Shown in pieces: positions 4,308 to 20,748 of a stretch of 64,000 bases of DNA. This DNA comes from a virus: positions 1-64,000 of the IMG/VR virus record IMGVR_UViG_3300032144_000007; one strand, written 5' to 3'. A program made the position numbers and the translations under genes. Position 1 is the first letter of the stretch. Every line of letters begins with the position of its first letter. Below the pieces are notes generated by a model. The model did no database searches. It was not told the origin of the DNA and was given only the letters and a program-made list of their open reading frames with translations.

Positions 4308-5417
4308 TTAAGCGGCCTTCTTGGAATTGTTGAACGCTTCGATGATGTCGGCGAGCGGGGTGAGGGCGTCCAGCTTCGGCTCGATCAGCAGCGCCTCGAA
4401 ACCCTTGAACATACCGAACACGGATGCCAGCTTCATCTTCTGGCTTTCGTCCTGTGCATTGTCGGGGTGCAGGCACGACAGCACCTTGCGGAACTGTGCC
4501 TTCGTCATGATGCCCTTCTCGTGCGAGCGGACGATCTGCTCGGCCAGTTCGATGCGGCGACCGTAGACCGGAAGGACGCTGTTGTTGATGAAGGTCTCGA
4601 TGCCAGCAGCGATGCGACCGCCGACTTCCTTCTCCAGTGCGCGGCGCTCGACCTTCAGTGCGGCCTCGACACGCTTGGCGATCTTCTTTTCCAGCTTTTC
4701 ATCGACCGGCTTTGCTTCCGGCTCGACATGCGTCAGCTTCAGCGGATCGATCTCGGTCGGCTTGACGACGGGCTCGATGGCGGGGCGCTTGTTGAGCCAG
4801 CTACCGTCAGTTGCGATTTCGGAATTATTCCGCTTCTGCATCACGCGGCTCACTGTCGCAGCGTTGACGCCGACTTCGTCAGCGGCTTCCTTCTGCGTCT
4901 TGCCTTCGGAAACCAGCGCGACGATCTTCTTGTTGCGGTCTTCCTCCAGCAGTTCGCGCGTCTCGGCAGTGATCTTCGTCGCCGACGATTCGGACACGCC
5001 GAACATGTCGGCGACTTCCTTCAGAGAGAACCCGTCGAAGACGAGATCGTTCATCATCTGGTCGCGCTGCTGGCGGGTGAGGTGGCGACGGCCAAGGTTC
5101 TGCGACAGGGCGAACCGGCGCGCGGCTTCATCGTTCGGGAAGTCGATGAAGGCGACCGGAACCTGATCGTCCTTGCCGATCTCCTTCAGTGCCGTCCATC
5201 GCGAACGGCCATCGACGATTTTGTTCTGGCCGGAATAGACGATGATCGGCGACGTCGCGTTGAAGCCGTGGTCGAGGATCGAACGCTTCAGCGTCTGGAA
5301 ATCTTCGTCGGACGGGAAGGGGAAAGCCGATGCGGCCTGATGGATTTCGAACTCGACGGCCTTCGGGTTTACGTACTGGATTGTAGCGGCGAAACCGCAG
5401 ATAACCATGTCAGTCAT
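4308..5417 (-). CDS. ParB-like DNA-binding protein
   Basis: A 369-aa protein with a ParB/Srx-type N-terminal domain (hydrophobic core IIVYSG, then the family signature VDGRSRWTAL) and a helix-turn-helix region near residues 140-200 (LKEVADMFGVSESSATKI; a second repeat QKEAADEVGVNAATVSRV). The C-terminal half is charged and helical. ParB-like proteins bind centromere-like sites or act as regulators; no ParA partner is visible. The start at 5417 was chosen because AGGAG lies 7-8 bases upstream; extension to 5516 would run through the promoter region. It is divergent from the Y-RNA array. Confidence 0.85.
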   Translation of the reverse strand: MTDMVICGFAATIQYVNPKAVEFEIHQAASAFPFPSDEDFQTLKRSILDHGFNATSPIIVYSGQNKIVDGRSRWTALKEIGKDDQVPVAFIDFPNDEAARRFALSQNLGRRHLTRQQRDQMMNDLVFDGFSLKEVADMFGVSESSATKITAETRELLEEDRNKKIVALVSEGKTQKEAADEVGVNAATVSRVMQKRNNSEIATDGSWLNKRPAIEPVVKPTEIDPLKLTHVEPEAKPVDEKLEKKIAKRVEAALKVERRALEKEVGGRIAAGIETFINNSVLPVYGRRIELAEQIVRSHEKGIMTKAQFRKVLSCLHPDNAQDESQKMKLASVFGMFKGFEALLIEPKLDALTPLADIIEAFNNSKKAA

Positions 5418-5455
5418 TGCCTTGCTCCTGTTTTGCAGCCCTACGCCGCGTTGAT

Positions 5456-5490
5456 GTACATAGATGTAAATTACCCTCACGGTAAATGCA
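5456..5490 (-). promoter_or_regulatory. Probable ParB-like gene promoter with operator
   Basis: Reading the minus strand, TTGCAT (-35) and TACATC (-10) are separated by 17 bases. The inverted repeat TTACC-N5-GGTAA (5471-5485) lies exactly in that spacer and would be a natural autoregulatory operator. A GTACATA box (5456-5462) overlaps the -10 region and recurs upstream of other regulators at 11854, 11887 and 49622. Confidence 0.4.
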
Positions 5491-5494
5491 AGTG

Positions 5495-5522
5495 TTGCAA
5501 TCGAACAAATTTGCATTTAAGG
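5495..5522 (+). promoter_or_regulatory. Candidate promoter of the Y-RNA array
   Basis: TTGCAA (5495-5500) and TTAAGG (5517-5522) are spaced by 16 bases. Transcription would start near 5529-5530, exactly at the 5' strand of the first RNA's terminal stem. The -10 is weak, so the call rests mainly on position. Confidence 0.3.
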
Positions 5523-5529
5523 AATGATT

Positions 5530-5602
5530 GTCGGTGTGGCGAAAGATCGCGGTTACTTCCTTTGAACGGAACCTCGTACCGCTTTCGTTTATTCCCATCG
5601 GC
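5530..5602 (+). ncRNA. Y-RNA-like ncRNA 1 (short form)
   Basis: The ends pair as GTCGGTG (5530-5536) with CATCGGC (5596-5602), 7 bp including two wobbles. Inside is an asymmetric internal loop with TGGCGAA on the 5' side and TTATTCC on the 3' side. A second helix can form as CGAAAG/CTTTCG and CGGT/ACCG around an ATCG bulge. The motif GGTTACTTC follows at 5551-5559. The apical part is short and has no tRNA-like insertion. The scaffold is shared with three neighbours and matches the general plan of Y RNAs (paired ends plus internal loop for Ro binding). Confidence 0.6.
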
Positions 5603-5617
5603 GCTTCGGACGATTTC

Positions 5618-5751
5618 GTCTGGCGTGGCGTAGAGATCGGTTACTTCATGTAATCTGTGGGTCGTCGGTTCGAATCCGGCTCCGGCTTTGCCGGGTAGCT
5701 CAGTGGTAGAGCAACGGAAAAAAGCCCGAACTCGCTTCATTCCCGCCAGAC
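5618..5751 (+). ncRNA. Y-RNA-like ncRNA 2 with permuted tRNA-like module
   Basis: The terminal stem GTCTGGCG (5618-5625) / CGCCAGAC (5744-5751) is 8 perfect bp. After the TGGCGTA internal loop, GAGATCGG pairs with CCGAACTC (7 of 8 bp). Beyond GGTTACTTC comes a circularly permuted tRNA: half of an anticodon stem TCTGT (5654-5658), T arm GTCGG-TTCGAAT-CCGGC (5664-5680), acceptor 3' strand TCCGGC, a TTT loop, acceptor 5' strand GCCGGG, then TA, D arm GCTC-AGTGGTA-GAGC (5698-5712) and the other anticodon-stem strand ACGGA (5714-5718). Known bacterial YrlA RNAs carry such a tRNA-mimic module; the next gene encodes the Ro protein. Confidence 0.8.
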
Positions 5752-5764
5752 CTCAATGACTGCG

Positions 5765-5832
5765 CTGACGTGGCGTAGGACGCGGCTACTTCTTTCAAAT
5801 GGTGGACGCCGCTATCCGTTTGTTCCCGTCAG
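5765..5832 (+). ncRNA. Y-RNA-like ncRNA 3 (short form)
   Basis: CTGACG (5765-5770) pairs perfectly with CGTCAG (5827-5832). The 5' internal-loop strand is TGGCGTA and the 3' strand contains TTGTTCC. GGA plus GCGGC pair with GCCGC plus TCC across a small bulge. GGCTACTTC (5784-5792) keeps the family motif with one change. At 68 nt it is the shortest copy and has no inserted module. Confidence 0.6.
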
Positions 5833-5841
5833 AACCGTCAA

Positions 5842-5971
5842 GTCGGGCGTGGCGAAAGGACCGGTTACTTCGGAAAAGCAGTTGGTTAACAGCCGACTGT
5901 GAGTGGTCTTCAAAGTCCACAGCACCATGCTTAGGATGGTGTGTTAACCGACCTGATTTTTCCCGCCCGAC
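5842..5971 (+). ncRNA. Y-RNA-like ncRNA 4 with a different three-hairpin module
   Basis: The terminal stem GTCGGGCG (5842-5849) / CGCCCGAC (5964-5971) is 8 perfect bp. The conserved TGGCGAAA, GGTTACTTC and TTTTTCCC elements are present. The insertion contains hairpins CAGTTGG/CCGACTG (5879-5899, 7-nt loop), GTGG/CCAC with a TTCAAA-containing loop (5903-5920, faintly T-arm-like) and CACCAT/ATGGTG (5923-5941). GGTTAAC (5884-5890) can alternatively pair with GTTAACC (5943-5949). It is not a clear tRNA. It ends about 60 bases before the rsr start. Confidence 0.6.
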
Positions 5972-6029
5972 CCTCGTCCCTTCGCGCCCTGGTACGCCTC
6001 GATCGACGATCGAAAACAGGAGACCAGGC

Positions 6030-17120: not shown

Positions 17121-18578
17121 ATGGCCGACAAGCCGCGTATCCGCGTCCCGGCGCATTCGCAACCTGTGAAGGCTGTTGAAGGTGAACCGCGAGATGGTCC
17201 GTGGCATGTCCACTGGCCTGACGGTCTGTTGCCGGACTCGTGGGGCCAGTATTGGAACTACTGGCAGATGGGCCGCGATCCTATCGCTGGCTTTGATGGT
17301 GTCGCGGTCGTCGAGGCATGTGTAAACGCGTATGCGCAGACAATCGCGCAATGCCCTGGCGATCACTGGCGGGCAACGCCGGATGGTGGACGTGAGCGTG
17401 TCACCAATTCGGCGCTGTCCCGCATCTTGCGGAACCCGAACAGCTACCAGACCCGGTCGGACTTCCTCCTGATGCTGGTGCGCAACCTCTACATGGATGG
17501 CAACAGCTATCATCTGGCCGAACGCAATGCCCGGTTCGAACCTTCCGCGCTGCATCCCTTCGATCCACGTCGTTCCAAGGCTGTCGTCGGCGCGGACGAA
17601 GCGATCTTCTATGAATTGGCCGGAAACAATGTGCTGGAGGGCAGCTACACCGGGCAGTTCAACAACTCGACGCTAAAGTACATCGTGCCAGCCCGCGACG
17701 TCCTGCACGTGAAGCTGGAAACAGAGCGCGACAACTGGCTGAAGGGCGTGCCGCCGCTTCGCCATGCCGGTGACGCGATCCTTGCACAGCGGATGATCGG
17801 CCAGCGGCTGATCTCCATGTTCGCTTCCATGGGCAAGCCGCCCGGCGTGATCGAAACATCCTTGAATCTGACGGCAAGCCAGATTTCCGAATTGCGCGCC
17901 AAGATCAACGAGACGTGGCGCGGCGTCGATGACATCAACTCCGGTCCGCCGATCCTGACAAACGGTTTGCAGTTCAAGGGCATCTCCATGACGGCGCAGG
18001 AAGCGGAACTCGCCAACCTGTCGAAGCTGACGCAGGACCAGATTTTCATGGTCTACGGCGTGCCGCCAGCGATCCTCGGCCTGACGGATCGTGCGACGTT
18101 CTCATCGACGGAAGCGCTGATGCAGTTCTGGCTTTCGCGCGGTCTCGGCTTTGCGATCAACCACGTCGAAACCGCCTTCGATCAGTTCTTTGGTCTCAGA
18201 GGATGGCCGGATGAGTATGTGGAACTCGACACGCGGGCGCTTCTTCGCGCGGCTTACAAGGATCGCATCGAAGGATTGGTCCGTGGCGTACAAGGCGGCG
18301 TTTACTCGCCGGACGAGGCACGAAATTCGGAAGACCTACCGAAGACGCCATATGGCAGTGAACCCCGCGTGCAGCAGCAAGTCGTGCCGTTGTCAGCATG
18401 GGCGCAAACATTGAACCAACCGGCGACGCCGCCAGCACCGGCACCCGATCCAGCGCCGCCAGCGTCGCCGGATGAAGGTGAGCCGGTCGAGGATGAAGCC
18501 AAGGCAATCGAAGATAAAAGCGTCAACTTCGACGAAAGCAAACTCATGCGAACGATCGAGGGGCAGGTATGTCACTGA
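17121..18578 (+). CDS. Phage portal protein (HK97 family)
   Basis: A 485-aa portal that would form the dodecameric ring at the capsid vertex through which DNA passes. Recognisable segments are [43 protein letters not shown] and the stem-to-crown part [20 protein letters not shown]. The C-terminus is a proline- and acid-rich tail ([20 protein letters not shown]). The gene is displaced downstream of the capsid genes; in most relatives portal precedes protease. Confidence 0.92.
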
Positions 18579-19858
18579 AAGATGAATTTGATCGGCTGAC
18601 AGAAAGTGCTGGCCGAATCATCGGGCAACATCTGGACAAGATGCGCGCTTCGTTTGCTGATCTTCGTGCAGAGTTCAAGGATATTGTTCTCGACCTCAAC
18701 GAGCGTTCGAACGAGCTTCGGGACCGTCTCGCGGAACTGAAGGATGGCGCACCTGGTCGCGACGGCGAACGTGGCGAACGGGGTGATCCCGGTCCGCAAG
18801 GGCTGGCGGGCGATAGTGGGCCGCAAGGGGAGCCGGGATCGCCGGGGGAAAAAGGCGATCCCGGTCCGTCTGGCGAAAGCGGCCCGCAAGGCGAGCGCGG
18901 CGAGAAGGGTGATCCCGGCGAGAAGGGTGAGACTGGACCGCAGGGCGAGCCCGGCCCGCAAGGCGAACCGGGTGAAAAGGGCGAGCGTGGCGAAGACGGC
19001 GCGAACGGCGTTGACGGTCGCGATGGTGCGCCCGGTGAAAAGGGCGAGAAGGGTGACGCTGGCGATGCCGGTGAGCGTGGCGAAACCGGGCCGCAGGGTG
19101 AGCGCGGCATGGATGGTGCCGATGGCGAGCGCGGTGAAAAAGGTGATCCCGGCGATATCGGTCCGCAAGGTGAGAAGGGCGAGCGTGGCGATCCCGGTGA
19201 GCGCGGCGAGCAGGGCGAACGCGGCCTTCAGGGTGAGCGTGGCGAGATCGGACCAGTCGGCCCGGTAGGGGACACCGGCCCGCGTGGATTCCGTGGCGAG
19301 CAGGGACCGCCCGGTCCGCAAGGTGAGCGTGGCATTCAGGGCGAGCAGGGCACGATCCCGGACATCCATGTTTGGGAACCGGGCAGTGTCGCGCTGAAGG
19401 GCCATCTCTACAGCCATAAAGGATCGACCTTCTACGCCAAGGCGATCACGGCACATGCACCGGATGATGACAACGAAGCATGGGCGATGGTCGCGCAGAA
19501 GGGCGACGATGCCTATCCCGGCATTGCCAAGGGCCGCTTCGATCCCGACAGCGAATATCGCGCCCGCGATTGCGTCGCTCATGACGGATCGTTGTGGATG
19601 GCGAAGCATGACAATCCCGGCCAGTGCCCCGGTGAAGGCTGGATGCTTGCCGCCAAGGCCGGATCGAAGGGCAAGCCGGGTGATGCCGGTCCGCCCGGAC
19701 CAGCCGGTCCGCGTGGCGCTACAGGTCGTGGTTTCGCTGGTGAGCCAGAACTGGACTTGAAGAACTTCCGCTGGATCATCCCGACGACAGACGGTGATCC
19801 GATCATTCTTGACATGAAGCCTATGTTCCAGCGCTTCCTTGACGAGACCAACCCATGA
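18569..19858 (+). CDS. Collagen-like structural protein
   Basis: A 429-aa protein. Residues 1-55 are a coiled-coil-like helix ([20 protein letters not shown]). Residues about 58-270 are continuous G-X-Y triplets rich in GER, GDP and GPQ, expected to form a collagen triple helix. A globular part follows ([18 protein letters not shown]; repeats of W and Y as in small carbohydrate-binding folds), then a second short G-X-Y stretch and an acidic tail. It overlaps the portal gene by 10 bases. It is probably a trimeric head fibre exposed on the virion. Confidence 0.85.
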
Positions 19859-20748
19859 ACGTGATGCCGAAGAGTGATGACCTCGAAAAGAGCAGGGCGG
19901 CGCGAGTCCTCCTTGTTCCAGAGGAAGGTCATGACTTCATCGGCAGTGAACTTCACGAACTTCTCTATGACCTCGATCGTCAAAAACTGCTCGTCAACGG
20001 CGTCGATCTCGTCGAGGAAGCGCCGCTGGACGGCAAGACCTACGGTCGGAACATGGGGGCATGGGTAACCGTTGGCGGCGGCGGGGGCGGCGGCGGCACT
20101 GGCGATGGATCGCAGGGGCCACCCGGCCCGCCCGGTCCACCGGGGCCGCAAGGCCCGAAGGGCGACACAGGCGCGACAGGTCCAAAAGGCGACACAGGAC
20201 TTCAAGGGCCACAGGGACCGCAGGGCATTCAAGGTCCGCCCGGCGCTGACGGCATTGATGGCGCAGACGGCGCACCCGGCGCGCAAGGTCCGCAAGGCGA
20301 TCCCGGACCACAGGGGCCGGAAGGTCCGCAGGGTCCGCAGGGCGATACCGGCGCACCCGGACTTCCCGGTATGGACGGCGTTTCGATGACATCCGGTAGC
20401 GGTGATCCGACCGCGCCAGGGCAGGAGATCGGCGACAGCTATGTCGATAGCGACACTGGCGCGATCTGGACATGGGATGGAACAAGCTGGACCAGCACAG
20501 GCGGTAGTCTTGAAGGTCCAGCCGGACCGCAGGGGCCACAAGGTGATCCCGGCGCACAAGGGCCAGAAGGTCCGCAGGGCGAGCCCGGCCCGCAGGGCAT
20601 CCAAGGTCCACAAGGGCCGCAAGGCATTCAAGGTCCAGCCGGGCCGGGACTACCGTTGCCGCCATCTGACGGCAAGACTTATGCGATGAAGAACGGTGTC
20701 TGGACCGAAATCATCATCCCGACAACGATGGACGCGATAGGTGCATGA
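19855..20748 (+). CDS. Second collagen-like protein
   Basis: A 297-aa protein. After an N-terminal globular segment of about 75 residues there is a Gly-rich linker ([11 protein letters not shown]) and G-X-Y repeats at about 85-175, a short linker with two Trp ([16 protein letters not shown]), a second G-X-Y block and the C-terminal motif [15 protein letters not shown]. The DGKTYxxxxGxW motif also occurs before the linker ([13 protein letters not shown]), so the protein is internally duplicated. Its ATG overlaps the upstream stop. It is probably a fibre partner of the first collagen-like protein. Confidence 0.8.

Follow-up and report, generated by a model that had tools for sequence, protein, structure and literature searches.

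The locus at 5618–5751 raises the question of how a tRNA-like body whose 3′ half precedes its 5′ half came to lie in a phage Y RNA, and what it does there. It was found in virus record IMGVR_UViG_3300032144_000007 (66,205 bases), of which positions 1–64,000, the whole stretch analysed and hereafter the window, were read; no tRNA gene was detected in the 66-kb record. The window encodes an integrase, portal, tape-measure and GpJ-like tail genes and an HK022-like terminase, and we therefore regard the virus as a temperate tailed phage. Two long genes between the portal and tail genes (18569–20742) carry collagen-like repeats. Directly upstream of a Ro60/Rsr-like gene, the stretch 5530–5971 comprises four tandem Y RNA units that share a 5′ motif (GGCGTAG or GGCGAAAG, followed by TACTTC) and a 3′ TTCCC box, each with a closing outer stem:

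5530–5602, plus strand: Y RNA 1, plain, without a tRNA module (motif GGCGAAAG...GGTTACTTC, 3′ box TTTATTCCC, closing outer stem)
5618–5751, plus strand: Y RNA 2, YrlA-type, with the permuted tRNA module (Rfam RF02553 match, fold z −2.77)
5765–5832, plus strand: Y RNA 3, plain (Y motif, closing stem CTGACG/CGTCAG)
5842–5971, plus strand: Y RNA 4, with a different, multi-hairpin module (closing stem GTCGGGCG/CGCCCGAC)
6030–7334, plus strand: Ro60/Rsr-like gene, TROVE plus vWA (Pfam TROVE 1e-11, VWA_2 2.4e-6)

The Ro60-like protein also matches the PHROG 850 RNA-binding protein (1e-46) and the solved TROVE proteins 9l5y and 9kop, and its gene starts 278 bases downstream of the end of Y RNA 2 on the same strand. 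Neither RtcB nor RtcA was seen among those window proteins that were scanned, a subset of all, and a ParB-like/HTH protein gene (4308–5516, minus strand) diverges from the Y RNA array. The Y motif reads CTACTTC in Y RNA 3 and TTACTTC in Y RNA 4. Y RNA 4 folds well (z −3.49; 0 of 200 shuffles equally good for 5845–5972) into a three-hairpin module, one loop of which, CTTCAAA, resembles a tRNA-Sec anticodon loop; as a carrier of an unpermuted tRNA it was dropped, its hairpins being devoid of T-loop and D-loop sequence.

Y RNA 2 is built from the following elements:

5618–5625 and 5744–5751, plus strand: outer Y stem of 8 bp (GTCTGGCG/CGCCAGAC), present in the minimum free energy structure
5633–5640 and 5726–5733, plus strand: proposed inner Y stem (GAG-A-TCGG/CCGA-A-CTC), read from the sequence
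5641–5647, plus strand: conserved Y RNA motif TTACTTC, common to relatives upstream of Ro
5648–5653, plus strand: anticodon-loop remnant ATGTAA, recognised on rejoining the halves
5654–5658, plus strand: anticodon-stem 3′ strand TCTGT, pairing with ACGGA at 5714–5718
5659–5663, plus strand: variable loop GGGTC, read from the sequence
5664–5680, plus strand: T arm GTCGG-TTCGAAT-CCGGC (pair probability 0.93–0.94; T-stem pairs co-vary in relatives)
5681–5695, plus strand: acceptor hairpin TCCGGC-TTT-GCCGGG (3′ strand 5681–5686, 5′ strand 5690–5695)
between the acceptor 5′ strand (ending at 5695) and the D arm (starting at 5698), plus strand: U8-A9
5698–5712, plus strand: D arm GCTC-AGTGGTA-GAGC (pair probability 0.97)
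between the D arm (ending at 5712) and the anticodon-stem 5′ strand (starting at 5714), plus strand: A26
5714–5718, plus strand: anticodon-stem 5′ strand ACGGA, supported by relatives and not by the single-sequence fold

The Y stem, formed by the TTACTTC side and the ATTCCC side, thus holds a complete tRNA body with its 3′ half first. A UUU loop bridges what were the tRNA ends, only these three nucleotides lying between the acceptor strands with no CCA encoded, and the Y stem enters at the anticodon arm, whose loop keeps six letters and has A at position 33. The arm order and helix strands described in the initial annotation were all found where it had placed them, and its location of the module within a Y-RNA stem agrees with the predicted outer stem and with the motif shared among relatives.

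The Rfam YrlA model (RF02553) aligns to 5634–5735 over all 114 model positions with 48.1 bits (E=1.1e-9), below the gathering score of 69, which is a curation threshold and no biological feature; together with the adjacent Ro gene, this match upholds the assignment to YrlA-type Y RNAs. The model itself runs from T arm through acceptor hairpin to D arm, identical to Y RNA 2, and the view of the permutation as something special to 5618–5751 therefore had to be given up. YrlA was detected at the gathering score in none of 19 related loci (L001–L018, L020), and standard annotation by this threshold misses the Y RNAs of this phage family.

Folding of 5618–5751 gave −53.1 kcal/mol (z −2.77), with 1 of 200 shuffles equally stable. 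In the single-sequence ensemble the T and D stems form with the probabilities listed above and five acceptor pairs reach 0.95–0.97, while the sixth acceptor pair, a G-U, stands at 0.19 and the anticodon stem at 0.00, since the 5′ Y strand prefers a local fold. A fold constrained to contain the anticodon stem as well as the other three helices is less stable by about 6 kcal/mol (−47.2 versus −53.1), and support for this stem therefore comes from comparison with relatives. The initial claim that all helices pair accordingly stands for the T and D arms and five acceptor pairs; it does not hold for the anticodon stem in the fold, four of whose five pairs are nevertheless supported by relatives. 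The stretch from 5380 to 6060 contains no sigma-70-like promoter, as might be expected if these were chance hairpins in an untranscribed spacer; nonetheless, the YrlA match (E=1e-9), the fold z-score, the covariation reported below and the synteny with Ro leave that explanation a negligible likelihood.

Related loci were gathered by Ro protein similarity and, independently, by DNA patterns limited to the Y motif and to portions of the T and D arms. Covariation was assessed in 125 distinct relatives from which identical modules had been removed, relatedness being otherwise uncorrected. When the 7 bases 3′ of the T arm were paired with the 7 bases 5′ of U8-A9, the acceptor strands matched at 6.22 of 7 positions, compared with 3.31 for shuffled partners (maximum 3.64), and several standard pair types were seen at every acceptor position. 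The inner Y stem formed 6.46 of 7 pairs with its own 3′ strand versus 5.57 of 7 with the strands of other relatives. Covariation of the tRNA helices among relatives and formation of the T and D arms in the fold, both of which the permuted-tRNA reading of the initial annotation entails, were thus observed. A Ro ORF is present in 96 of the 123 module-bearing loci, most of which were retrieved by the DNA pattern alone and a minority via Ro itself. Where a Ro ORF was present, 124 of 127 permuted modules were no more than 2 kb away from it, and they invariably shared its strand.

For YrlA, the basal stem is known to bind Rsr while a tRNA-like domain is presented, a Y RNA tethers Rsr to PNPase, and Salmonella YrlA is modified by DusA and TruB, with dihydrouridine and pseudouridine as the modifications reported (PMC8394870). 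Y RNA 2 may attract tRNA-modifying enzymes in a similar way, as the initial annotation suggested. Putative Y RNAs upstream of the Rsr gene are strongly transcribed in Listeria phage CKA15 (PMC12282133). From the known YrlA/Rsr/PNPase relationships and these transcribed phage Y RNAs, we infer that Ro binds the Y stem and that the tRNA body docks a partner. The protein encoded at 6030–7334 would bind the Y stem of Y RNA 2, and the L-shaped tRNA body would serve as the effector end, docking a host protein with affinity for tRNA-like RNA; PNPase would be the most likely candidate, by analogy with the Deinococcus radiodurans RYPER complex (Y RNA/Rsr/PNPase), which would share with Y RNA 2 the tethering of Ro proposed here. 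During infection, the phage may in this way redirect how structured RNA is degraded or subjected to quality control. We hold it to be probable that Y RNA 2 is a phage YrlA-type Y RNA working along these lines with a PNPase-like partner, and a tether of Ro to a tRNA-binding protein such as PNPase is, by this analogy, its likely function.

The anticodon stem divides the relatives into 46 of the window type (the window included) and 76 with a local hairpin. In the former, the two halves are joined by a stem whose pairs 27:43, 28:42, 29:41 and 31:39 exceeded all 500 shuffles, while 30:40 did not (0.70 versus a null of 0.63, maximum 0.76). In the latter, only 27:43 and 28:42 connect the halves, and the other three pairs close a 7-base loop as a local hairpin, so that a complete anticodon arm is present, into which the Y stem enters between positions 28 and 29. 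These 76 local loops carry U33 in 71, A38 in 72, A37 in 58 and U36 in 53 cases, U36 being somewhat more frequent than in ordinary tRNAs that share this D arm (55 of 114; p=0.004, kinship uncorrected). Most of the loops read CTNNTAA, in which U36-A37-A38 is the pattern of t6A-carrying tRNAs, and the anticodons in such loops are GUU, UGU, GCU, UCU and CUU. The retention of anticodon arms in the relatives suggests that some partner reads beyond the T, D and acceptor arms.

The conserved letters U33, A38, A37 and U36 would be needless for a plain tether, and they favour the idea that the module is a decoy sequestering tRNA-acting enzymes of host or defence origin, such as anticodon nucleases, with Ro merely stabilising the RNA; a role as competitive inhibitor has indeed been proposed for Salmonella YrlA (PMC7790460). 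However, the nuclease tested on Salmonella YrlA left it uncleaved (PMC7790460), and in the window copy the Y stem emerges directly from the anticodon loop, with six loop letters and A at position 33, so that no intact loop is offered for nuclease cleavage. A decoy fits the relatives with intact arms better than the broken-loop window copy, and we consider it unlikely. Tethering of Ro to a tRNA-binding partner is the function that we prefer.

The opposite circular order was encountered at no fewer than eight Ro-adjacent loci (L016, L017, L030, L032, L036, L038, L054 and L057). These run from the acceptor 5′ strand through the D arm, the Y 3′ strand, a loop and the Y 5′ strand to the anticodon 3′ part, the T arm and the acceptor 3′ strand. 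In effect, these are linear tRNA bodies that keep a full acceptor stem and accommodate the Y stem within the anticodon arm; across the eight loci, the acceptor stem has a folding probability of 0.74–0.99. L017 carries its unpermuted module at about 2763–2900 with CCA encoded, and L030 has two tandem opposite-order units on the minus strand (about 1372–1630) alongside plain Y RNAs. Of 15 reversed modules from loci with a Ro ORF, a count that includes low-quality calls such as that at L150, 14 were no more than 2 kb away from it, again always in the orientation of Ro. An extra −1:73 acceptor pair was considered as a mark of unpermuted modules and rejected, since it occurs in 19 of 22 modules but also in 412 of 641 ordinary phage tRNAs.

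Opposite-order loci are scattered on the Ro tree, requiring seven changes for seven labelled rows, at least four of them forced by well-supported branches, on a quick tree of 90 proteins into which entry of loci was biased by the pattern search. Permuted RNA genes have been explained in the literature by tandem duplication and subsequent loss of the outer parts (PMC3978253). Since a tandem array of either order spans the other order at its unit boundaries, duplication and loss would switch the order; duplication of a tandem Y RNA unit with loss of the outer halves could in this manner have produced the permuted tRNA and would explain both orders in the relatives. On balance we incline to the view that in phage Ro loci whole tRNA bodies act as interchangeable effector modules of Y RNAs, in both orders, with repeated switching and often with a complete anticodon arm, the window copy being one permuted case.

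Run directly on the window, ARAGORN reported no tRNA, and after rejoining of the two halves of Y RNA 2 it called tRNA-Thr(tgt). Rejoined modules were called as tRNA in 125 of 128 cases, compared with 170 of 636 for mismatched halves. The tRNA-Thr likeness noted initially is therefore reproduced, while a threonine origin rests on the loop letters TGT only. The nearest tRNA of the panel to the body of Y RNA 2 is Gly(gcc). Assignment of isotype by body similarity was rejected, as nearest-neighbour typing was correct for only 90 of 150 tRNAs in leave-one-out (60%), and for this inaccuracy no donor tRNA is claimed; Glu-like bodies stand apart in this typing. A recent acquisition of modules from tRNAs in their own contigs was likewise rejected, such a tRNA being nearest in only 1 of 53 cases.

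That the body points to no single isotype in a 60% accurate test, and that a same-contig tRNA is so seldom nearest, could also be understood if a Y RNA had drifted towards tRNA-like arms without descent from tRNA. Such convergence is improbable in our opinion, as an unpermuted version of the body with a 7-bp acceptor stem occurs beside Ro genes, U8-A9, the variable loop, the D loop and the anticodon-loop letters are kept, and Y RNAs within one locus contain distinct tRNA types, e.g. Glu-like bodies (L001, L002). Because the helices covary, the halves rejoin into tRNA-like sequences, anticodon-loop hallmarks are retained and both circular orders exist, descent from a real tRNA accounts for the permuted body better than loose mimicry does, in line with the origin first suggested for the module.

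The call of tRNA-Thr(tgt) on rejoining would equally suit a real permuted tRNA gene of the kind found in red algae, in which circularisation and processing of the precursor yield a functional tRNA. Against this, the acceptor strands are separated by the UUU loop only, with neither CCA nor a processing leader, the acceptor stem in the window is at most 6 bp, U33 is lost in the window copy, and the conserved Y stem sits where the halves would be joined. To our knowledge, the algal splicing endonuclease is absent from bacteria, and we regard a functional tRNA as a highly improbable product of this locus. Descent from a tRNA, followed by service within a Y RNA, is the reading that we retain.

Comparison with known systems places these features in context. 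Y RNA 2 resembles YrlA (RF02553; Salmonella YrlA, PDB 6CU1) in the succession of Y stem, T arm, acceptor-like hairpin and D arm, in the short helix at the place of the tRNA anticodon stem and in the adjacent Ro60/Rsr gene, whereas it differs in its 5-bp anticodon stem (by comparison), its retained anticodon-loop letters, its UUU-capped acceptor hairpin, its phage location and its sub-gathering score. With the permuted tRNA genes of algae and archaea it shares a 3′ half before the 5′ half and a likely origin from tandem duplication and outer loss (PMC3978253), but those genes mature to working tRNAs, while Y RNA 2 keeps its acceptor loop and its Y stem at the anticodon. Two-piece tmRNA is likewise a permuted tRNA-like RNA from a rearranged gene, from which Y RNA 2 departs in having no tag reading frame, another break point and, as we suppose, Ro in place of SmpB. 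In Rhodobacter phage RcXuper (L003), an unannotated permuted two-piece tmRNA match (2531–2947, 108 bits) adjoins a Y RNA-like match.

Y RNA 2 thus belongs to the known YrlA class, and, as far as our search extends, what is new lies in its relatives, namely the opposite order and the complete anticodon arms. Among the titles and abstracts listed by a literature search, with the primary YrlA papers outside its scope, none described the domain as circularly permuted, and with this caution we regard both features of the relatives as undescribed. In Xanthomonas phage 10KY502B, the segment annotated as tRNA-Thr (OQ622092.1 20624–20691; L001 2956–3023) is likely mis-annotated, since it covers the 5′ portion of a Y RNA that carries a permuted tRNA module, and some phage Y RNA copies are probably mis-annotated as ordinary tRNAs. 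A little-studied RNA class gains a concrete origin from these observations, and since both circular orders occur in related phages, the origin of YrlA-type tRNA mimics becomes directly testable.
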